Below are positions 18,679 through 46,752 of a stretch of DNA of 64,000 nt, one piece after another. Location: positions 62,001 through 126,000 of the forward strand of contig JADZBE010000038.1 in assembly GCA_020852275.1 (NCBI GenBank). The letters are read 5' to 3'. The notes beneath the pieces were generated by a model, which was not told where the DNA came from, ran no database searches, and saw only the letters and a program-made list of their open reading frames with translations. The DNA comes from Phycisphaerales bacterium. Lineage in GTDB: Bacteria > Planctomycetota > Phycisphaerae > UBA1845. A program made the translations under genes and the position numbers. Each line of letters opens with the position of its first letter. The stretch's first letter is position 1.

Positions 18679-19269
18679 CTACTCCAAGCCCGGCAGCCCG
18701 GCTTCGCGCGCCGCCTGCTCAACCTGGTCCAGTCGAACGCGTAGATCCTCAGGCAACGAATCCCGCACTCTGCTGTCGATCAGTCCCACTCGCAGCATGT
18801 CCGCCACATGCACCCGGTCCAAGTCGCGAAATGACGTTAGTTTCATTCGCACCAGCGCCGGCAGGTCCAATACCCAGAAGCCATCTGCGTCAAACACGGA
18901 CTCATCGACATCCGGCGCCGGCACGGTGTTCGAGGGCCAAACTTTCTGGCCGGCCCAGACCAAATGCACGCCCGCGCGACGCTGAGGTTCTTGGGGATCA
19001 AGAAAAATAACCCAGCCGCGCAGATCCTCCCGTATGAACCCGATCCCGGCCATGGCGGCTGAGACCAACTCGACGTCTATCTTGCGCACGAGCAGATCTA
19101 CGTCTTTCGTGGTGCGCGTCGCGGAAGGATCCCTTCGAGCAATCCAAGTTGCCACGGCATTCCCGCCAATGACGGCATAGGATACTCCAGCCTCGTTCAG
19201 CGCCGCCGTCACGACCCTGAGTCGCTCTTGGACTCTGTTCATCGCTTCCACATAGGCTGAAAAGGACAT
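18679..19269 (-). CDS. nucleotidyltransferase-fold protein (AbiEii/DUF6036-like), inserted between nuoH and nuoI
   Basis: A 196-residue protein. [13 protein letters not shown] is followed by [12 protein letters not shown], with the GG and D-x-D spacing of polymerase-beta-type nucleotidyltransferases. A C-terminal helical part ([20 protein letters not shown]) resembles AbiEii/DUF6036 proteins, which in some bacteria act as toxins or antitoxins. It is clearly paralogous to the protein at 30533-31144 (same motifs and same LPEDLR near the end). No partner gene is adjacent here. The start ATG 19269 is used because the longer frame begins with TTG 19296. It ends 14 nt before nuoI and starts 30 nt after nuoH, so it is embedded in the operon. 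The substrate is unknown. Confidence 0.7.
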
Positions 19270-19299
19270 CGGTTCACCCACAGCATTGCAGATCAATCA

Positions 19300-23125: not shown

Positions 23126-24874
23126 TCATCCCGTCGGGTCCGCGTTTCTGGCGACCCTGGGCGGCCGTTGCTTTGTTACCATGAACGGCCCCAGCGCCAG
23201 ATGCTCCAGCCCAGAGTTCTCGAACACGTGCAGCGCCTCCTTCGGACCGGCGCAGATCGGGTAGCCGTGCAGGTTGAACGACGTGTTCAGCATCACTCCC
23301 CGCCCGCTGAGCCGCTCGAAGTGCTTCAGGCAGCGGTGCAGGTCCGGGTTGTGCTCCGGCTCCAGAAGCTGTGCCCGCGCCGTCAGGTCCGCGTTGTGCA
23401 CGGCCGCGAGAAACTCGGGGAACGTCTCGCGGCTGTCAAACGTGAGCATCATGTGCGGGCTGGGAAGGTGCTTCGGATTGTGGATGTACTCGTCCGACCG
23501 TTCGCGCAGCATGATCGGCGCAAACGGCATCCAGAAGTCGCGCTTCTTGACCATCTGGTTGATGACCCGCACGCTGTCCAGCTTGCTCGGATCGGCCAGG
23601 ATCGACCGGTTTCCCAGCGCCCGCGCGCCAAACTCCATCCGCCCCCGGCACCGCGCCACCGGATGGCCGGCGTGAACCAGCCGGGCAATCTCCAGCTCGA
23701 TGTCCGCAGGCCGGCTGAACGCCCACTGCCTTTCTTCCAGCAAGTTTCGCGCCGCGGATTCGTCCACGTCCGGACCAAAGTAGATCGGCCCCCACGGCTC
23801 AAGCTCCGCCGCGTCCGCCAGCTCCGCGTGCGCCAAGGCCGCGGCGCCGTACGAGAGCGACTCATCCCCGCACGAAGGCAGCACGCCCAAGTGCGACACC
23901 TCCGGCAGCTCCATCAGCCGCTTGTTGGCCTTGACGTTCATGAACACGCCGCCGCCGCCGACCACTTTCCCCAGCCGCGTGTGCCGGACGCAGTTCTGCG
24001 CCCACTGCACGATCAGGTCTTCGGTGAACTTCTGAAGCCCGGCGCAAATCGCGTCGAAACGCCGCAGCCGCATCGCCCGCAAGAGGCTTGGCCCCTGCAT
24101 GTGCATCGGCAGAAGCGTTTTCTTCGCGAAGCCCAGCCCGTCGGGGCGCAGCTCGACGTAGCGGTGGAAGATCCGGGCGGCCTCTTCCGCGCGGCGCGCG
24201 TCGTGGTACGGCGCCATGCCCATCAGCTTGTACTCGTGGTCGTAGGGGATGAAGCCCATGAGGTACGTGACGAAGGCGTAGATCGTGCCGATGCTGTGCG
24301 GGATCGTGGTCGCGGCGATGCGCTTCAACGTGCCTTTCGAAGCGATCGAGACCGTCGCGCAGTGATGCTCCCCGGCGCCGTCCAGCGTGAGCACGAGGTG
24401 ATCGCTGCCCGCATCCGTTCGCATCGCGTAGTACGCTGAAGCCGCATGGCAGGCGTGATGCCCGTAAGCCTTCACGTCGCCGCCGACAAGCCCGCACTCT
24501 TCCAGCAGCGCGCGCCGCAGCTTCATGTTGTGCTTCAGCCGTGCATACGGCATCTTGCCGATGAGCCGGATCAGCGCCATCCGCGCCAGCCCCGACGGGC
24601 GAAGCAGCCGCTCGAACGCGTACAGCGTCGCCTTCAGGTCGCGCCGCCGCGGCACGCCGGAAATCGTCGAGAATGCCACGCGTTCGATGTCGCCCGCGGC
24701 AAGCCCCAGGTACTTCAGCGCGTGCTTGACGGCCTCGGAGGGAAACCCCCAGTAATTCTTCTCGTACCGGATGCGCTCCTCCTGCACGAGGTACGCCACC
24801 TTGCCACCGACGAGCGCGCACACGGAGGCGTTGTGCCCGTCGTGGATGCCGAGGATGACCTTGCCCTTGTCCAT
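23126..24874 (-). CDS. NodU/CmcH-family carbamoyltransferase
   Basis: A 582-residue protein. The N-terminal ASKHA domain begins VILGIHDGHNASVCAL and contains HHACHAASAYYA, LTLDGAGEHHCAT and PYDHEYKLMGMAPYHD, the metal- and carbamoyl-phosphate-handling motifs of NodU/CmcH/TobZ enzymes. The C-terminal YrdC-like/Sua5-like part includes MEFGARALGNRSILADP and GVMLNTSFNLHGYPI. Such enzymes transfer carbamoyl groups to hydroxyls of sugars or antibiotics. It is followed upstream by a methyltransferase gene, so the pair may decorate a glycan or metabolite. Both lie between nuoF and nuoG, which has no obvious functional logic. Length and motifs are typical. Confidence 0.9.
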   Translation of the reverse strand: MDKGKVILGIHDGHNASVCALVGGKVAYLVQEERIRYEKNYWGFPSEAVKHALKYLGLAAGDIERVAFSTISGVPRRRDLKATLYAFERLLRPSGLARMALIRLIGKMPYARLKHNMKLRRALLEECGLVGGDVKAYGHHACHAASAYYAMRTDAGSDHLVLTLDGAGEHHCATVSIASKGTLKRIAATTIPHSIGTIYAFVTYLMGFIPYDHEYKLMGMAPYHDARRAEEAARIFHRYVELRPDGLGFAKKTLLPMHMQGPSLLRAMRLRRFDAICAGLQKFTEDLIVQWAQNCVRHTRLGKVVGGGGVFMNVKANKRLMELPEVSHLGVLPSCGDESLSYGAAALAHAELADAAELEPWGPIYFGPDVDESAARNLLEERQWAFSRPADIELEIARLVHAGHPVARCRGRMEFGARALGNRSILADPSKLDSVRVINQMVKKRDFWMPFAPIMLRERSDEYIHNPKHLPSPHMMLTFDSRETFPEFLAAVHNADLTARAQLLEPEHNPDLHRCLKHFERLSGRGVMLNTSFNLHGYPICAGPKEALHVFENSGLEHLALGPFMVTKQRPPRVARNADPTG

Positions 24875-26096: not shown

Positions 26097-26402
26097 TCAA
26101 ACAGAGAGCCGCGAAGCTGAGAAGGAAGTCTCATCCTTGGTTATCGATACACATCTCTCCGATGTCCGACGCCATATACATACAAGCAAGCGCTTCCGGG
26201 AGTCATCGATCCGGTAGAGGATGCGGTAGCCGCCGCTACGCACGCGATACGCATGGGTCAGACCCTTGAGTTTCTGCACGCCGTGCGCCCTTGGATCGTC
26301 GCGCAGCGCCGCGATTTTTTCCAGAAGACGCCGCACGTCCGCACGGGGAATGCGCGCCAATTCCCGCTCGGCCGAAGGAAGCACGAGAACGTCATACGAC
26401 AT
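26097..26402 (-). CDS. RelE/ParE-family toxin
   Basis: A 101-residue protein of the type II toxin fold. It starts MSYDVLVLPSAERELARIP, continues LLEKIAALRDDPRAHGVQKL, and ends with the strand signature YRVRSGGYRILYRIDD and LLVCIWRRTSER. RelE/ParE proteins cleave ribosome-bound mRNA or poison gyrase. ATG 26402 follows the stop of the partner gene by 3 nt, the usual antitoxin-first order. The module lies between nuoF and the methyltransferase and is flanked by two copies of the nuoF 3' end. Confidence 0.85.
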   Translation of the reverse strand: MSYDVLVLPSAERELARIPRADVRRLLEKIAALRDDPRAHGVQKLKGLTHAYRVRSGGYRILYRIDDSRKRLLVCIWRRTSERCVSITKDETSFSASRLSV

Positions 26403-29980: not shown

Positions 29981-30355
29981 TCAGGGTATCGAAAGTCGTG
30001 CCAGCATGGCGGGCAATGGCCTCAGGCTCCTCGACAGCGGATCGATCATCATCCCCATCGCCTCCAGTGCCGTGGCGCCGAGCAGGTTCGCGTCTCCCCC
30101 CTGACCAAAAAGAACCGGCGCGACGCCGCCGACGCCCTGGTACTCAAAATACGCGCCTCCCATCGGCCGCGACGTCTTGGAGCCGTCCGCCAGCGTAACC
30201 GTCAACGATCTGTGCGGCTGAATCCCGAGGCGCGCAAGGACGTCCCCCGGCGCCAGCGTGTAGGTCGCGCCGGTGTCAACCAGAAACTCCAGCGTTTCGC
30301 CCACCGCGTCCGAGGGCAGCCGTTTGACCATGATGTCAAGGTAGGTGATCCCCAT
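29981..30355 (-). CDS. retropepsin-like aspartic protease, immediately upstream of nuoE
   Basis: A 124-residue single-domain aspartic protease-like protein. The catalytic loop is FLVDTGATYTLAP (canonical D-T-G-A) and the second core motif LLGATALEAMGMMIDP. It is a close paralogue of 22446-22865, sharing order, length and the terminal L.PL pattern. There is no signal peptide. ATG 30355 starts MGITYLDIMVKRLPSDAV. It ends 11 nt before nuoE, so the nuoE ribosome site overlaps its 3' end. The target protein is unknown. Confidence 0.75.
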   Translation of the reverse strand: MGITYLDIMVKRLPSDAVGETLEFLVDTGATYTLAPGDVLARLGIQPHRSLTVTLADGSKTSRPMGGAYFEYQGVGGVAPVLFGQGGDANLLGATALEAMGMMIDPLSRSLRPLPAMLARLSIP

Positions 30356-30532: not shown

Positions 30533-31144
30533 TCAGCCCTGTTCCCGCTCGAACGCTTCAAGCACCTGCACAAATCGCGGGCGAAGGTCCTCCGGCAGCC
30601 GGTCCTGCCAACTCGCGTCCAGCAAGCCGATCGAGAGCATGTCCACCAGATGCGTCTGGTCCCGCAATCGGAATGCCAGGAGCTTCATCTTCACCAGCCC
30701 CAAAAGAGGAACCACGCGAAAACCGGCGATACCCGGTGCGGCGTCGGCCACATCCGGTGCAAGCGTCGAGTCCAACTCGCGAATCGCCTCGTTGGCAAAG
30801 ATCAGGTGGACTGCGTTCTTCGGGGACGGGTCGCGGGTCTCTACAAACATCGTAACACCAAGCACCTCCGCCGGTTCCAGACCGATCGGTCGCAATGCCT
30901 CGGTGATTCGATCGAGGTCGGCCCGACGAACCAGCAGGTCCACGTCCTTCGTCGTGCGCACAGCATGTGGATCGATCGTGGACACCCACGCCGCAACGGC
31001 GTTTCCTCCTATGACCGCGTAGTCCAGACCCGCGGCATCCAGCGCTTCCGTCGTGCGTCGGAGTAATTCCTCAACCTTGCTCACGGCGCGAAGGTGCCTC
31101 GCAAAATCCTCATAGGTTGGCGGTCGCAGCTCGGTTGAATGCAT
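30533..31144 (-). CDS. nucleotidyltransferase-fold protein (AbiEii/DUF6036-like), between nuoD and nuoE
   Basis: A 203-residue paralogue of 18679-19269. [13 protein letters not shown] and [12 protein letters not shown] carry the GG and paired Asp motif, and the C-terminal half has LVKMKLLAFRLRDQTHLVDML and LPEDLRPRF. The two proteins align over almost their full length, so they are duplicates or independent arrivals of one family. ATG 31144 is used. It starts 59 bp after the nuoD stop; 177 bp follow before the retropepsin-like gene. No adjacent antitoxin-like partner. Confidence 0.7.
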   Translation of the reverse strand: MHSTELRPPTYEDFARHLRAVSKVEELLRRTTEALDAAGLDYAVIGGNAVAAWVSTIDPHAVRTTKDVDLLVRRADLDRITEALRPIGLEPAEVLGVTMFVETRDPSPKNAVHLIFANEAIRELDSTLAPDVADAAPGIAGFRVVPLLGLVKMKLLAFRLRDQTHLVDMLSIGLLDASWQDRLPEDLRPRFVQVLEAFEREQG

Positions 31145-31203
31145 CGCGCACATGCCCCACCGTCATGAAGAGGATTCCCCCTTGCCGATGCGCCAACCGC
31201 CCA

Positions 31204-32618: not shown

Positions 32619-33116
32619 TCATTTCCTTTTGCTTTTCTTGCTGCGAGCCCGTAATTGCGAAAGCGCCTTCGGTTTTGTTCGGAGTGTCGCCACGTCCAGC
32701 AAGTCCTGCGGTCGACCCGCCGCGAGCTTCGCTTTGATGAGATCCGGTCTCGAAGGCACCGCGATCGCAACGTCGCCATAGGTCGTGCGTACGCGATGGC
32801 TCCATGCCGCGTCGAACTTCAACCCGTCAATGCTCATCAGAATGTCGATTCGGTGCGGCTCGACGCCAATCGCATACACGACGTCCTCATTCATGAACTC
32901 GGACTCCGGCACGTCCCTGACCGGAGCACCAAAAACTCTCAAAGCTTCCCAGACCCGAGCCGCGTTCGCGGCCGTAGGCTGTACCCAGACGTCCAAGTCC
33001 TTCGTGTAGCGGGGTTCAGTGTAGTACATCACGGCGTGTGCGCCGACGACGAGAAACCGGGCTTTCTCGTTTCTCAAAGCGAGCAACAGATCTCTGAAGT
33101 CTGGGGATATTTCCAT
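32619..33116 (-). CDS. nucleotidyltransferase (DUF6036-like), partner of small upstream gene
   Basis: A 165-residue protein beginning MEISPDFRDLLLALRNEKAR, with FLVVGAHAVMYYTEPRYTKDLDVWVQP holding the GxHA and D-x-D motif of the DUF6036/AbiEii-like nucleotidyltransferase group. The C-terminus DLIKAKLAAGRPQDLLDVATL and a Lys/Arg tail are typical. It differs from the other two NTase genes in the operon. It overlaps the small upstream gene (33016-33285) by about 100 bp, an arrangement seen for toxin-antitoxin-like pairs. The function is inferred only from fold. Confidence 0.78.
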   Translation of the reverse strand: MEISPDFRDLLLALRNEKARFLVVGAHAVMYYTEPRYTKDLDVWVQPTAANAARVWEALRVFGAPVRDVPESEFMNEDVVYAIGVEPHRIDILMSIDGLKFDAAWSHRVRTTYGDVAIAVPSRPDLIKAKLAAGRPQDLLDVATLRTKPKALSQLRARSKKSKRK

Positions 33117-40018: not shown

Positions 40019-40426
40019 TCAATGCCCTTCGGCCACAAGGTTGCGATTCCAATCCGGGATTTCGACAACGATATCCACCGACCCGTCCGGCACCGCTTGA
40101 CATGCGAGGCGGCTGGTGGGTCGCAAACCCGGCGCGTTGTCCAGTTGGTCCAGCTCCGCGTCGGCCGGCTCGTTGGTCGATTTCATGCCTTCCTTCACGA
40201 GGCAGTGGCAGGTCGAACAGGCGCACACGCCGCCGCAGGCATGGTCGATCTCGATGCCGCTGCCTAGAGCGATGTCGAGGATGCTGCCGGGCAGGCCGTT
40301 GTGCTCGTAGGGAATCTTCGCCGGGTCCACCTCGACCGTCACGTTCATCGGCATGAACGTGATCCGGTACTTGCGCGTGGGGAGGCGGACCTCCGCTTCC
40401 TTGATGTATGGATTAACGCCGCCCAT
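40019..40426 (-). CDS. fdx: 2Fe-2S ferredoxin of the ISC system
   Basis: A 135-residue adrenodoxin-type ferredoxin that supplies electrons for cluster assembly on IscU. Ligands lie in DHACGGVCACSTCHCLV (Cys64, 70, 73 or the alternatives 68 and 75) and LACQ (Cys109). The spacing C-x5-C-x2-C...C is that of the ISC Fdx family. It is the last gene of the isc cluster, 212 bp after hscA, and reads toward a repeat-rich gene-free region. ATG 40426. The N-terminal ~18 residues (GGVNPYIKEAEVRLPTRKY) are an extension relative to E. coli Fdx. Confidence 0.92.
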   Translation of the reverse strand: MGGVNPYIKEAEVRLPTRKYRITFMPMNVTVEVDPAKIPYEHNGLPGSILDIALGSGIEIDHACGGVCACSTCHCLVKEGMKSTNEPADAELDQLDNAPGLRPTSRLACQAVPDGSVDIVVEIPDWNRNLVAEGH

Positions 40427-40638: not shown

Positions 40639-42498
40639 TCACTTCAGGCTGGCCGCGATGGCTTTCTCTGCCAGCGGAATCGTCAGCCGGTTGAATTGCT
40701 CCCGCTTCTCGTTGATCTCCCTGGCGTCGGTGCTGGTGCGCGCCAACCGGCGCAGCGCGGCCGCGTCGCGCTTCAGCCGGTCCCGCTCGTTGGCATCGAG
40801 CAGGTCGCCGTATTGCTCGATCATGCGCTCGGCCTTGCCGAGGTCGAACTCGACGGTGGTCCGCACGTCAATCAGATGGTGCGCCGACATGTCCTCGCGC
40901 GCGTGCTCGACGGCTTCAAGCTGCATCCGCCGGACTTCCTCCCGCGTCAGCCCGTGCGACGGGACGATTTGAATGCTCGCCGTCTGCCCGCTGCGCAGCT
41001 CCTTGGCGAAGACGTTGAGGATCCCGTTCGAGTCGATCAGGAACGTAACCTCGATTTTCGGAATGCCCGCGGGCATGGGCGGAACGCCGCGCAGCTCAAA
41101 CACGCCCAGGCAGCGGCAGTCGCGCGCCAGCTCCCGCTCGCCCTGAAGCACGTTGATCTTCACCGCCGACTGCCCGTCCTGAAACGTGGTGAACATCTCG
41201 ACGGCCTTGCACGGCACGCGCGTGTTCGCCGTGATCAGCTTGCCCACCGCTCCGCCGAGCGTCTCGATGCCCAGGGACAGCGGCGTGACATCCATCAGCA
41301 GCAGGTCCTGCCGCATCCCCGCAAGGATCGACCCTTGCACGGCGGCGCCGAGCGCGACCACCTGCTCGGGGTTCAATGCGGTGTACGGACGCCGCCCGAA
41401 GAGCTCGCCCACCTGCCGGCGCACGTACGGAATTCGCGTCGAACCGCCCACCATCACCACTTGCTGCACCGCCGACGCCTCCAGACCCGCCGCGCGCAGT
41501 GCCCGGCGGCAGGCCTCCAGCGTTCGGTCCACCAGCGGCGCGATCATCGCCTCGAACTCCTGCCGGAGGATCGTGCGCCGGTACGTGAAGTTCGCGCCGA
41601 CGGCGATCTCCACGTGGGCTTCGGCGTCCTCGCTGAGCCGGATCTTCATCTGCTCGGCCAGGGTGCGGAGCTGCTGACGGATCGTCGGCGAGTCAATGTC
41701 GAGACCCGACTGCTCGCGGATTTCGCGCGTAAAGAGGTCCATGAGCGTGCGGTCGATGTCGTCGCCGCCGAGGTGCGTGTCGCCGTCCACGGAGAGCACC
41801 TCGAACAACCCTTCCTCGACGCGCAGGAGCGAGATGTCAAACGTGCCGCCGCCGAAGTCATACACCGCAATCGTTGCCGTTTCCGCGCGGTCCAGCCCGT
41901 AGGCGAGCGCCGCAGCCGTCGGCTCGTTCACGATGCGCACCACGTCCAGCCCGGCAATCTCGCCCGCGTCGCGCGTGGCCTGCCGCTGCGCATCGTCGAA
42001 GTGCGCCGGCACGGTGATGACAGCCTTAACGACGGGGCGGGCGAAATGCGCCTCCGCGCGGCGCTTGAGCTCGGCAAGGATGAGCGCGCTGACCTGCGGC
42101 GGCGTCAGGCGGCGCGAGCCCACGACGACCTCGACCACGTCGCGCCCCGTGCCGTCATCGCGCAGGCGTTCCACGCGGTAGGGCAGGCGGCGGACTTCCT
42201 CCTCCACCTCGGCGACGCCCTTGCCCATAAGCCGCTTGATGGAGTACAGGGTCGCCAGCGGTTTCTCCACCGCGTGACGACGCGCCTCCGAGCCGACGAC
42301 GATCCGTCCGTCATCCTCCAAGCAGACAAACGACGGGACCATGACGTCCTCCGCGCCGTTCGCCGCGCCAGCGCCAGCCGCCGCGAAACCGCCGCCCGCC
42401 CCGCTGATGAGCCGCGGCCCGGACGCGTCCGCCCACGCCACGAGCGAATTCGTCGTGCCCAGGTCGATGCCGATGATGATGTCGCGGCTTTCTGCCAT
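40639..42498 (-). CDS. hscA: Hsp70-family chaperone HscA
   Basis: A 619-residue ATP-dependent chaperone that helps transfer clusters from IscU. The ATPase domain has [31 protein letters not shown] and [17 protein letters not shown] plus [15 protein letters not shown]; the substrate domain follows with [13 protein letters not shown]. The phosphate loop and the linker to the substrate domain are intact. The start ATG 42498 is used; the 51 codons upstream lie outside the family. It follows hscB (124 bp) in the isc cluster. HscA rather than DnaK is chosen because of position and length (619) and the C-terminal lid without a GGF-rich tail. Confidence 0.93.
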
Positions 42499-42622
42499 GT
42501 TCACAGTCGTTCCCAGCCGGCTCGTCACGGCGATCCCGCAGCGCGGCAACCGTGGGGAAACGGGCTTGCAAGCCCAATCGACCACGAACCCGCGCCCCTC
42601 CCCCGGGCGAGAGTCGAAGGCC

Positions 42623-43234
42623 TCACGCGCGTTCCGCCAGTAGATTGTCAAAGTACTTCAGCGAGTTCAGCGCCCTGCGCATGCTCCGCCGGGTCCGTTC
42701 ATCCACCGAGTCGATTTCCCTGGCAACAACCGCGATCGTCTCCAGCGTCCGCCTTCGCCGCGTGCGCAGCGCCTGCTGCATCCGCTCCAGTGCCGTGCGA
42801 TCCCCCCGGGCGCGGGCCTGCTCCAGTTCCTCGCGCAGCTCCATCACTTCCATGAGCAGCTCGCCCGGCGCCTCCCGCTCCTCGGCCGCGCTGGGTCCGC
42901 CCGCCAGCTCCAGCAGGTAGTCCGCCCGCAGCACGGGATCGCGCAGCACCTGGTAGGCGCGGTTGACCTCGGCGGACAGCCGCGTCGCCAGCGTGCGCAT
43001 CTGCTCCGACTGGTCCGCGAAGCGGTCGGGATGCACGTTGCGCGCGATCGACCGGAACGAGGCCGCCAGTTCGCTTTCGTCGAGATCGTACTTCCGAGGC
43101 ACGCCCAGCAGCGTAAAGTGATCCGCGCTCTGCGGAACGGGGTACAGCGTGTGGCAGCCGATGCACACGATGGGCGTGTTCTGCTCAGCCTGGCAGCCGG
43201 TGCACTTCAGCGGAAGTGATTGCGCGGAGGACAT
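42623..43234 (-). CDS. hscB: J-domain co-chaperone HscB with N-terminal tetracysteine motif
   Basis: A 203-residue co-chaperone that delivers IscU to HscA. The J domain has NVHPDRF with HPD at 68-70 and the adjoining [20 protein letters not shown]. The C-terminal helical domain follows with [12 protein letters not shown]. The N-terminus carries Cys11, Cys14, Cys24 and Cys27 (CTGCQ...CIGCHTLYP), a CxxC-x9-CxxC zinc-finger-like motif known from eukaryotic HSCB but absent in E. coli HscB. ATG 43234. It lies between iscA and hscA. Confidence 0.93.
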
Positions 43235-43357
43235 GATTTCGATTCGTTCATCCTGGGTCTGCCACGTGAGCCGGCGCCGGCGACTCGCAACGCGTGGACG
43301 CACGCCCCGCAGCCTCCGCGGCGCGCCGCTGGACCTGAGCGCGTTCCCGGATCGCGC

Positions 43358-43408: not shown

Positions 43409-43759
43409 CTAGACTGCGAAGCTGCTGCCGCAGCCGCACGAGCTGGTCGCGTTGGGGTTGGTGAACACGAACCCGCGCCCCATCAGTTCGTCGCGGAAGT
43501 CGATCACCGTGCCGTCCAGGTAGAGATTGCTCTTCGGGTCGCAGATGATGGCCACGCCGTCCTGCTCGCACTGCTCATCCAGCTCGCCGACGTTTTCCGT
43601 CAGGTCCAGCGAGTAGGAGAACCCGCTGCACCCGCCGCCCTTGACTCCGACGCGCAGGTACAGCGGCTTGAACTCTTCGCCGCTGTTCCTCGCCGACTCT
43701 TTCTGCTGGCCGATGATCCCGACCACTTCCTTCGCCGCTCGTTCCGTCAGTTTGATCAT
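43409..43759 (-). CDS. iscA: A-type iron-sulfur carrier protein IscA
   Basis: A 116-residue cluster carrier with the three invariant cysteines: Cys44 (VKGGGCSGFSY) and Cys108 and Cys110 (NATSSCGCGSSF). The domain core IKLTERAAKEVVGIIGQQ is typical. ATG 43759 is the family start; the frame extends upstream as an artefact to 44200. It lies between iscU and hscB. Confidence 0.95.
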   Translation of the reverse strand: MIKLTERAAKEVVGIIGQQKESARNSGEEFKPLYLRVGVKGGGCSGFSYSLDLTENVGELDEQCEQDGVAIICDPKSNLYLDGTVIDFRDELMGRGFVFTNPNATSSCGCGSSFAV

Positions 43760-43890: not shown

Positions 43891-44307
43891 CTACGACGGC
43901 GAGGACGCCGCGGCACTCGCCACGCGCGCCTCCTGCTTCTTGCGCACGTCCGCGATGGCCGCGCGGATGGCGTCCTCCGCCAGCACGCTGCAGTGAATCT
44001 TCACCGGCGGCAGCGCCAGCTCCTTGACGATGTCCGTGTTGCGCAGCTCCTCGGCCTCGTCGAGCGTGCGCCCCTTGACCCACTCGGTGGCGAGTGAGCT
44101 GCTGGCGATGGCGCTGCCGCAGCCGAAGGTCTTGAACTTGGCGTCGGTGATGCGCCCCTCGTCGTCCACCTTGATCTGCAGCTTCATGACGTCGCCGCAC
44201 TCCGGCGCGCCGACGATGCCCGTGCCCACGCGGGCGTCGCCCTGATCGAGCGAGCCGACGTTGCGCGGGTTCTGGTAATGATCGATGACTTTGTTGCTGT
44301 AGGACAT
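43891..44307 (-). CDS. iscU: iron-sulfur cluster scaffold IscU
   Basis: A 138-residue scaffold with ligands Cys37 (GAPECGDVMKL), Asp39, Cys63 (TFGCGSAIASS) and Cys106, and the HscA-binding motif LPPVK at 99-103 (LPPVKIHCSVLA). The last ~14 residues are an Ala/Ser tail. ATG 44307. A 131-bp gap with CGCCCGGCG-type repeats precedes iscA. Unusually, its partner iscS is separated by two small genes. Confidence 0.96.
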   Translation of the reverse strand: MSYSNKVIDHYQNPRNVGSLDQGDARVGTGIVGAPECGDVMKLQIKVDDEGRITDAKFKTFGCGSAIASSSLATEWVKGRTLDEAEELRNTDIVKELALPPVKIHCSVLAEDAIRAAIADVRKKQEARVASAAASSPS

Positions 44308-44333: not shown

Positions 44334-44597
44334 TTAGTCGAACACCGGGCTCAATGCGACGTTTACGCCTAGCTTCTCGAGAATGAATGCTTCGACATCC
44401 GCAAGGACTTCAGCGATTTTTCCCGCATTCTTCTGATCGGTCGACACCACGCAGAACCAAGCGCCGCCCATGAGCGATATATTGTGGGCGCTGATCTGCG
44501 CGACGTTCTTTCTCTTGTCCAGTTCTTTCTGGATAAGCTCAAAGAGATCCTTCGCGTCGACCAACTTTGGCTTCTTACGAGACGTTTTCGTGATCAT
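44334..44597 (-). CDS. small protein paired with HEPN protein, between iscS and iscU
   Basis: An 87-residue protein, MITKTSRKKPKLVDAKDLFE onward, with a lysine-rich start, a helical middle (LIQKELDKRKNV) and a C-terminal part with KIAEVLADVEAFILEKLGV. I do not recognise a domain. The ATG overlaps the stop of the HEPN gene (ATGA) so the two are coupled; size and context fit a toxin-antitoxin partner. It starts 26 bp before iscU (iscU start 44307) in the isc transcript. Confidence 0.6.
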   Translation of the reverse strand: MITKTSRKKPKLVDAKDLFELIQKELDKRKNVAQISAHNISLMGGAWFCVVSTDQKNAGKIAEVLADVEAFILEKLGVNVALSPVFD

Positions 44598-44974
44598 GTT
44601 CCCACAAACCTCTCCACCGACCGTAACGCCTCAAACGCTACTTCCCCGTCCAACCTGACGGTAGGTCGATGGTCGGCCAACTCTCGCAATCGCTTCATCC
44701 GTGTCAGCGTCAACCTGATTTCCCTTGCTCTTCTCAAGCCCAGCGGCTTGGTCAGATGGGACGCAACAAGCGCCGGCAGCGCTTGATGCGACCACGTTCC
44801 CAAGCCGCCTCGCGGAGACTGTCCCGCTTCGAGCAATCGACCGTGAACGTGAGCGAAGATCGAATAATAGGCTCGGCTCACGAGGCTACGGGGATGGCTC
44901 TTGGTAATCCTTCGCGCAGCCCGGATCGCGTCTCTAGCCATTTCAAACCACGCGTCCGATTCAGCACGAACCAT
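44594..44974 (-). CDS. HEPN-domain protein inserted between iscS and iscU
   Basis: A 126-residue protein. The helix-loop SRAYYSIFAHVHGRLLEAG is the signature of UPF0332/HEPN proteins, and a C-terminal RELADH matches the RX4-6H motif seen in HEPN ribonuclease toxins. HEPN domains occur as toxins with MNT-type or other antitoxins and in stress systems. ATG 44974 is 13 nt after the iscS stop with GGGGAG upstream. It would be transcribed together with the isc genes. Functional HEPN toxin activity is inference from the motif. Confidence 0.75.
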   Translation of the reverse strand: MVRAESDAWFEMARDAIRAARRITKSHPRSLVSRAYYSIFAHVHGRLLEAGQSPRGGLGTWSHQALPALVASHLTKPLGLRRAREIRLTLTRMKRLRELADHRPTVRLDGEVAFEALRSVERFVGT

Positions 44975-44987
44975 CCGCTGCTCCCCG

Positions 44988-46205
44988 TCAATGATGCTGC
45001 CACTGCACCTTCGACAAGTCCACTCCGGCGAGCGCCATCTCGTACAGCGGGCTCATCGCCCGCAGATGATTCACCGACTTGACCACAAGGTCCACCGTGT
45101 AGTCGATATCCTCCTTCGTCGTAAAACGCCCGAGCGAAAACCGGATCGAGCTGTGCGCCAGCTCGTCGCCCAGGCCGATGTTCTTCAGCACGTAGCTGGG
45201 TTCCAGCGAGGCGCTCGTGCAGGCGCTGCCCGAGCTGACCGCGATGTCCGAGAAGCCCATCATCAGGCTCTCGCCCTCGACGTAGAGAAAGCTGATGTTG
45301 ACGATGTTCGGCAGGCTGTGCTCCGGATCGCCGTTGCGCGCGATGTCCGTCAGGTGCTCGGAAAGACCCGCCCAGAGCCGGTCGCGCAGCGCCGCCAGGC
45401 GCTTCGACTCCTGCGGCATCTCCTCCCGCGCGATCCGGGCCGCTTCGCCAAAGCCGACGATGCCCGGCACGTTGAGCGTCCCGCTGCGCATCCCGCGTTC
45501 GTGCCCGCCGCCGTAGATCACCGGCTCCAGCCGCACGCGGGGTTTCTTCCGCCGAACGTACAGCGCTCCCACGCCCTTCGGTCCGTAGATCTTGTGCGCC
45601 GACGCGCTGAGCAGGTCGATCTTCATCGCCTCGACATCGATGGGGGTCTTGCCGAACGCCTGCGTCGCGTCCGTGTGAAACAGGATGCCGCGCTCGTGGC
45701 ACAACGCGCCGATCTCGCCGATCGGGTGGATCGTCCCGATCTCGTTGTTGGCGAACATCAGCGACACGAGGATCGTGTCCTCGCGCATCGCCTCGCGCAC
45801 CTGCTCGACACTGACCCGGCCCTGACCGTTGGGCTGAAGAAACGAGACGTCAAAACCCTGGGTCTGGAGAAACTTGCAGGGGTCGATGACGGCCTTGTGC
45901 TCGATCAGCGAGGTAATGATGTGCCGTCCCTTGTCGCCGTACATGCGGGCGGCGCCGAGGATCGCCAGGTTGTTGCTCTCCGTGGCGCCGCTGGTCCAGA
46001 TGATCTCCTTGGATTCGGCGCCGATGACAGCGGCGACGTGCCCGCGCGCCGCCTCGACCGCCTCCTCTGCGACCCAGCCGAACTTGTGGCTGCGGCTGGC
46101 GGCGTTGCCGAATTCTTCGCGGAAATAGGGCAGCATCGCCTCCAGGACGCGCGGATCGACCGGCGTCGTGGCGGCGTTGTCGAGATAGACGTTTCTGGAA
46201 CCCAT
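44988..46205 (-). CDS. iscS: cysteine desulfurase IscS
   Basis: A 405-residue PLP enzyme that releases sulfur from cysteine for cluster assembly. The PLP lysine is Lys205 in [14 protein letters not shown] and the active-site Cys329 sits in the loop [17 protein letters not shown]. Other blocks are [29 protein letters not shown] and [13 protein letters not shown] 46205. It follows iscR by 17 bp. Standard length, no fusion. Confidence 0.97.
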
Positions 46206-46222: not shown

Positions 46223-46678
46223 TCAGGCGCCGACAGTGGCGCGCACCAACGGCGTCACCGCCGGCCGCGCAGCAATATCAGCAACACTTATTTTTTCCAA
46301 GTATTCTCGTAAACCTTCGTGCAGCCGCTGAATCGGCGACCGAATCGGGCAGTGGGCTTCCAGCCCACAGGCGCCGAACGACGAATTCGTCGCCGACAGC
46401 ACGCACTGTACCAGCCGCAGCGGCCCCTCCAAGCTCTCGATGACGGAAAGCACACTGATGTCCGCCGCAGGCAAGGACAGCTGGTAGCCTCCCCGAGACC
46501 CCCGCTCGCTGGCGATAAACCCGCTGCGCAGCAGGGTTTTCAAGATGTTGGTCACCATGGCGAGCGGCATCTTGTAGCGGTCCGCGATTTCGCGGGCGCT
46601 GCAAAACTCGCCGCGATGCTCCGCCAAGTGGACCAGCACGATCAGGCCGTAATCGGTTTTTCGAGTGACCGCGAGCAC
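46223..46678 (-). CDS. iscR: Rrf2-family Fe-S regulator IscR
   Basis: A 151-residue winged-helix regulator. The start is GTG 46678, giving [19 protein letters not shown], the normal Rrf2 beginning; the longer frame to 46738 begins with TTG and overlaps the promoter. DNA-binding residues lie in [21 protein letters not shown]. Three Cys ligands for a 2Fe-2S cluster are Cys92, 104 and 110 (QCVLSA...[12 protein letters not shown]). First gene of the isc cluster, so it probably autoregulates according to cluster supply. Confidence 0.93.
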
Positions 46679-46703
46679 GCTTGATTCCACTTGCTGGAAG
46701 TGT

Positions 46704-46752
46704 CGTCCAAAGACTCGATTGAATATAGCACCGATCAAGTCCTATTTCAAGT
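46704..46752 (-). promoter_or_regulatory. isc promoter upstream of iscR
   Basis: On the minus strand TTGAAA and TATATT are separated by exactly 17 bp (CACTTGAAATAGG...GTGCTATATTC). It lies about 45 bp upstream of GTG 46678. This is the best sigma70-type promoter in the window and supports the shorter iscR start. An IscR-binding site is likely here but no consensus could be fixed by eye. Confidence 0.6.

Follow-up and report, generated by a model that had tools for sequence, protein, structure and literature searches.

The window analysed here is a stretch of 64,000 nt from a Phycisphaerales bacterium (contig JADZBE010000038.1, positions 62,001 to 126,000), and it carries on its minus strand an isc operon in the order iscR, iscS, HEPN, partner, iscU, iscA, hscB, hscA, and fdx, with all genes co-directional. 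The HEPN gene starts 13 nt after the iscS stop codon (CGGGGAGCAGCGG), its stop codon and the start of the partner gene share an ATGA (4-nt overlap), and 26 nt separate the partner stop codon from the iscU start. The initial annotation had reported this tight packing, and its coordinates and spacing were exact. The HEPN and partner genes are each single-copy in the genome, and together they form a small, tightly coupled two-gene operon of the kind that characterizes type II toxin-antitoxin systems. The features of the locus are as follows.

40019-40426, minus strand: fdx, assigned from sequence (translation)
40639-42651, minus strand: hscA, assigned from sequence (translation)
42623-43303, minus strand: hscB, assigned from sequence (translation)
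43409..43759, minus strand: iscA, assigned from sequence (translation)
43891..44307, minus strand: iscU, downstream flank of the cassette
44334..44597, minus strand: partner gene (87 aa), predicted antidote; leave-one-out profile match and structure model
44594..44597, minus strand: ATGA overlap of HEPN and partner genes, seen in the sequence; probable translational coupling
44594..44974, minus strand: HEPN gene (126 aa), HEPN-T / PF05168, AF0298-like; predicted RNase toxin
44669..44671, minus strand: HEPN His102 codon (the H of RELADH), Tyr in 40/41 homologues
44684..44686, minus strand: HEPN Arg97 codon, conserved in 41/41; aligns with catalytic R122 of the retron-Kva2 HEPN
44786..44788, minus strand: HEPN His63 codon, conserved in 40/41; aligns with catalytic H64 of the retron-Kva2 HEPN
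44864..44869, minus strand: HEPN Tyr36-Tyr37 codons, aligning with RNA-positioning Y41-Y42 of the retron-Kva2 HEPN
44988..46205, minus strand: iscS, flanking the cassette upstream; native, clusters with empty-site genomes of the same genus
46223..46738, minus strand: iscR-type Rrf2 regulator (PF02082), head of the isc operon

The HEPN protein scored 21.1 bits against PF05168, slightly under the gathering cut-off of 22; the same model was matched by 36 of 37 homologues (E<=0.01), and a leave-one-out profile of the family recovered the window protein with E=1e-31 (Z=5000). Its AlphaFold2 model (pLDDT 95.8) has six helices arranged in the all-helical HEPN bundle, and the best fold match was 2hsb (AF0298) with Z 16.8, followed by other HEPN proteins. 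The initial annotation had also pointed to an RX4H motif, RELADH. The letters are present and the protein does belong to the HEPN family, but only Arg97 of the Arg-His pair is invariant: across 41 HEPN sequences R97 and D101 are conserved in 41/41 and H63 in 40/41, whereas His102 is found in the window protein alone and is replaced by Tyr in the other 40/41. Thus RELADH is not the active-site motif of the family, and a canonical RX4H active site was ruled out by conservation. The protein lacks the Rx4-6H signature of canonical HEPN RNases and instead keeps the motif Arg (R97) with an alternative His N-terminal to it (H63). The same arrangement defines the HEPN-T type (AF0298-like), in which the motif His is missing, the Arg of Rx4-6H is kept, and a conserved His lies upstream (Anantharaman et al. 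2013, PMC3710099).

The family profile also matched the HEPN of retron-Kva2 (36ht_I), and Y36-Y37, H63, R97, and D101 of the window protein align with its Y41-Y42, H64, R122, and D126. Taken alone, the segment containing R122 aligns weakly (3.3 bits), yet it joins the same motif, R-x3-D-Y. The conserved residue set of the family is R97 together with the upstream H63 and Y36-Y37. H64A, R122A, and a Y40-42A triple mutant of the retron-Kva2 HEPN each abolish defence, and its dimer reportedly degrades tRNA (PMC13405049, preprint).

The partner protein was recovered by its own leave-one-out profile with E=5e-7 (Z=5000), and its 87-aa model has the order alpha-beta-beta-alpha-beta (pLDDT 81.9). Searches of Pfam, NCBIfam, and PADLOC with the partner returned no convincing family match and no nucleotidyltransferase family. 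Its fold matches were KH-like domains, RbfA, and metal-transporter C-terminal domains, a mixture of families at Z 8.6 or lower, and assignment of a function from the fold was dropped because these matches were unspecific. Subfamily HEPN genes at three Armatimonadota loci (L054, L056, and L060) stand with a longer partner of about 165-175 aa, composed of the partner domain and a C-terminal extension. An apparent natural fusion of HEPN and partner (L071) proved to be a frameshifted HEPN gene and was rejected.

Distribution was assessed in a class sample of 397 genomes of Phycisphaerae and by outward searches, and almost all genomes behind the data are metagenome-assembled. Some 45 related HEPN-partner pairs were found overall. 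All 30 subfamily HEPN loci in the class sample adjoin a partner gene, none standing without one. The subfamily separates cleanly by score, with 29 HEPN proteins at 109 bits or more and one (G682) at 70 bits, all beside a partner; the next scores belong to a frameshifted copy (G561) and then to other HEPN proteins at 58 bits or less. Gene order is constant, HEPN first and partner second, and the 4-nt overlap was present in 15 of 20 modules measured. Partner genes in which no HEPN was detected occur in two Sumerlaeota genomes.

The initial annotation had proposed a toxin-like pair inside a core Fe-S operon, and this was borne out: both genes are real, both have homologues, and six further genomes carry the pair in their iscS|iscU slot, although the partner in one of them (G222) gave no significant leave-one-out match and was assigned by position. 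When the two stacked modules of G008 are counted once, the class contains 35 module loci, of which 27 lie in three core-gene slots (19 in rpoB|rpoC, 7 in iscS|iscU, and 1 in rpsL|rpsG) and 8 elsewhere. Outside the class, modules were found in gltB|gltD of a Planctomycetota genome (another such genome has a second, degraded copy flanked by gltB and gltD), in atpG|atpD of a Sumerlaeota genome, and directly 3' of sufB in an Armatimonadota genome. The control set comprised 39 other HEPN genes from the class, all lacking a partner, and none (0/39) lies in the five core slots tested. Six or more core hits would have a probability of ~2e-6 given ~14 acquisitions and core-complex junctions amounting to 3% of slots; the inputs are estimated, and the figure is a rough guide. 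The suggestion that such pairs are not placed by accident held, given that one family recurs in rpoB-rpoC, iscS-iscU, rpsL-rpsG, gltB-gltD, and atpG-atpD and the control HEPN genes are absent there. A specific link to Fe-S operons did not hold, as the commonest site is RNA polymerase, and because rpoB-rpoC is the commonest slot an Isc-specific function was ruled out. In a literature search of incomplete coverage, no paper describing HEPN pairs within core operons was found.

Occupancy of a given slot is patchy. In family f108 the rpoB-rpoC slot is occupied in genus g377 and contains remnants in two g350 genomes; most sister genera have gaps of 43-230 nt with no recognisable module, and three further gaps of 315-602 nt gave no assignable content. 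In the survey of related isc operons that had been proposed as a check, the iscS-iscU gap is empty (20-159 nt) in 17 of 17 same-family genomes with an intact junction, two of them of the same genus, and the pair is present there in the six genomes mentioned above. GC3 of the window pair is 0.62/0.68, as against 0.89 for iscS and 0.95 for iscU. A tree of IscS and IscU places the window among its empty-site congeners; in the module tree, by contrast, its module groups with that of a genome from another family (G583), and holding the three f102 modules together was disfavoured (AU p=0.027). Because the relatives are empty, GC3 is low, and native IscS and IscU contrast with a module that groups elsewhere, the window pair is best explained as a horizontal gain, into the same slot that its nearest relatives occupy. 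Transfer of the cassette along with long iscS and iscU flanks was not observed, and the flanks are native. Plasmid and phage records searched for the HEPN-partner pair gave no match and hence no mobile vehicle, an IMG/VR scan returned distant HEPN proteins only, and the first search of genome contigs with the window protein as query gave no match.

Isc-located modules from four families form one clade (95/98), and rpo-located modules require several origins (parsimony 7), a single vertical origin and single clade for the rpoB-rpoC location being rejected (AU p=0.00015). The rpoB-rpoC gap of G008 (L059 5977-7852) contains two distantly related modules separated by a GNAT acetyltransferase gene. 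A similar GNAT gene lies 3' of the HEPN-partner module in G045. Within genus g377, rpoB/rpoC of G504 and G538 share ~91% DNA identity and their modules 52-59%, while for G504 and G523 the flanks are 81% and the module ~80% identical; alleles have therefore been exchanged with sharp borders.

Possible footprints of entry were also recorded. A degraded second rpoB 3' end (55 bp, 80%) lies 74 nt 3' of the partner in G045, and a second sufB 3' end (267 bp, 84%) lies 3' of the partner in an Armatimonadota genome (L066), these two being the only core-gene loci with such duplications beside HEPN modules; at two further module loci the flanks carry direct repeats (199 and 62 bp). No integrase was visible at module loci. 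End duplications and repeats would be expected if cassettes entered by recombination in conserved core-gene ends, and these few cases suggest that the cassettes spread by recombination at core-gene ends. Speculatively, the modules may even belong to an integrase-less class of mobile cassettes for which the 3' ends of essential genes are landing pads, such that a donor end and cassette recombine in together and the old end is left as a remnant; rpoB-rpoC and iscS-iscU would then be sockets at which immunity modules, tied to core transcription, are exchanged as alleles. We regard this extension as tentative and rather improbable in its full form. In a congener (G011, L234 951-1061) 37 codons of the nuoD 5' end are present a second time (81% protein identity) upstream of nuoD, beside small accessory genes, a core-gene-end duplication of the same sort as those at HEPN modules.

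The concentration in core slots might alternatively reflect insertion anywhere followed by retention only in strongly expressed, undeletable operons, so that core location would record survival and not targeting. The 8 of 35 class loci that lie elsewhere, several with a decayed HEPN gene, and the empty slots of other genera are what this explanation would predict. It is nevertheless doubtful, given that distant lineages have entered the same two slots repeatedly (AU p=0.00015), that two unrelated modules are stacked in one rpoB-rpoC gap, and that duplicated core-gene 3' ends lie beside modules; these observations point to targeted or homology-driven entry.

Decay of the modules is uneven. The HEPN gene has been lost with the partner intact through clean deletions in G514 and G451 and a frameshift in G561, and the partner of G514 still has a dN/dS of 0.10. 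Assembly errors could account for some intact partners without HEPN, although the G514 and G451 deletions are clean. In the HEPN of G523 (L119) the RNA-positioning Tyr pair reads Tyr-Asp (SRSYDAAF), which suggests that this HEPN is inactivated while its partner stays intact. Within f108, dN/dS is about 0.10-0.20 for HEPN, 0.09-0.11 for the partner, and 0.01-0.02 for rpoC, with dS near saturation in several comparisons. On these estimates the pair is functional but fast evolving, and conflict modules tend towards fast evolution.

Strict pairing, coupling, and loss of HEPN with the partner intact are the grounds for the predicted antidote role, and most likely the partner is an antidote that holds the HEPN in check; a co-factor role would also fit its small size and coupling. 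In most type II modules the toxin gene is not first, and it counts against the toxin-antidote reading that the HEPN gene, the putative toxin, precedes its partner here. Decay that removes the toxin first and keeps the antidote would also be expected of a purely selfish addiction cassette with no host benefit, in which the host dies when the antidote is lost and any deletion extending into the flanks damages essential genes. Horizontal spread, allele swaps, and insertion beside essential genes agree with such a cassette, and purifying selection in genus g377 argues against it; sequence data cannot separate it from a defence role, and we consider it unlikely.

A different possibility is that the pair is a domesticated operon regulator in which HEPN and partner bind or cut the mRNA of their own operon and set the ratio of the flanking genes with no toxicity involved; mRNA-level operon regulation has been suggested for MtlR-type HEPN proteins. 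This role would suit a pair that lies between subunits of one machine, is tightly spaced and co-transcribed, and evolves under purifying selection. A regulator of one operon should, however, be stable in that operon, and the same family occurs in unrelated operons, its location is patchy even inside genera, alleles at one slot are swapped wholesale with unchanged flanks, and HEPN has been lost with no visible change to the operon. Regulation of this kind is thus the least probable of the alternatives.

The nuo operon of the window also contains accessory genes, and the isc pair had been described as a repeat of the nuo pattern. The habit of insertion into core operons is shared, but the nuo inserts belong to other families (NTP_transf_5, DUF6036, ParE, and aspartyl protease), and several are conserved in the genus, unlike the isc pair. 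Nucleotidyltransferase-like genes (NTP_transf_5 twice, DUF6036) lie between nuo genes at 18679-19296, 30533-31153, and 32619-33116 (minus strand). The nuoD-nuoE insert of this type is found at the same place in three congeners and another genus, and the nuo nucleotidyltransferase-like inserts are for that reason older than the isc pair. ParE-type toxin and retroviral-type aspartyl protease genes occur between nuo genes at 26097-26402 and 29981-30355 (minus strand), and G043 has the same kind of protease gene in its nuo operon, while another adjoins the HEPN module at a gltB-gltD locus (L052). A carbamoyltransferase-like gene within the nuo gene run (23126-24874, minus strand) was assigned by eye from sequence. 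A nucleotidyltransferase gene resembling, by eye, those in the window's nuo operon lies just 3' of the HEPN-partner module in G519 (L132 2265-2861).

The preferred reading, with a probability of roughly 0.6, is that a HEPN RNase toxin and a new, small antidote protein have lodged in the isc operon and are co-transcribed with it, the pair serving growth arrest or abortive infection and having spread by recombination at core-gene ends. RNase activity, toxicity, antidote role, tRNA target, trigger, and benefit are all predicted properties of the pair. The HEPN would work as a dimer, with an active site built from R97 and H63 of both subunits and with Y36-Y37 holding the RNA in position; analogy with retron-Kva2 makes tRNA its likely target. 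The partner, usually coupled by the ATGA overlap, most likely restrains the HEPN. The pair would be read together with iscRSUA-hscBA-fdx, there being no room for a promoter of its own, so that its supply would depend on transcription of the core operon. If host expression were disturbed, the antidote would run short, and growth arrest or abortive infection would follow as the most likely benefit. Horizontal transfer, with recombination in the ends of conserved core genes, would bring the cassette into such slots.

Several known systems resemble the pair in part. The HEPN of retron-Kva2 (type IX, PDB 36ht) is likewise of the HEPN-T type without the canonical motif, with an aligned Tyr pair, His, Arg, and Asp, and as an RNase kept inactive by partner components it resembles the predicted RNase and putative antidote described here. 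The window pair differs in having no reverse transcriptase, msDNA, or winged-helix gene, with only iscS and iscU flanking it, and so falls outside type IX; its partner is an unrelated 87-aa protein, and its site lies between iscS and iscU. AF0298-like HEPN-T proteins (2hsb, matched at Z 16.8) and AbiV also keep the Arg of Rx4-6H, lack its His, and have an upstream His, but PMC3710099 gives MNT fusions and clustering with R-M systems, and neither the partner of the window nor placement in core operons. Type VII HEPN-MNT modules (HepT/MntA) share the two-gene HEPN organization and a related helical fold (Z about 9-10), but the window pair has no nucleotidyltransferase as partner, lacks the RX4HXY motif, and has the HEPN gene first; HEPN-MNT membership was ruled out by the absence of a nucleotidyltransferase in the partner. 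Core defence hotspots of Pseudomonas aeruginosa (PMC10250203) similarly exchange accessory defence-type genes between conserved core genes, whereas the insert here is a 0.65-kb pair with no integrase that sits within co-transcribed operons, in the interval from the stop codon of one core gene to the start codon of the next. In both its partner family and its genomic niche the pair departs from what the HEPN literature searched describes.

The usual places to look for toxin modules are mobile elements and defence islands. The present family lies inside operons for RNA polymerase, the ribosome, Fe-S assembly, glutamate synthase, and ATP synthase, and its partner is not represented in Pfam, NCBIfam, or PADLOC. 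Its repeated occurrence between core genes suggests that conserved housekeeping genes are docking sites for such modules. The sockets offer a route to further modules through scans of rpoB-rpoC or iscS-iscU gaps, and through the end duplications a mechanism of insertion that needs no integrase becomes testable. Should the predicted toxicity and neutralisation hold, the pair would provide a directly testable link from core-gene transcription to growth arrest.
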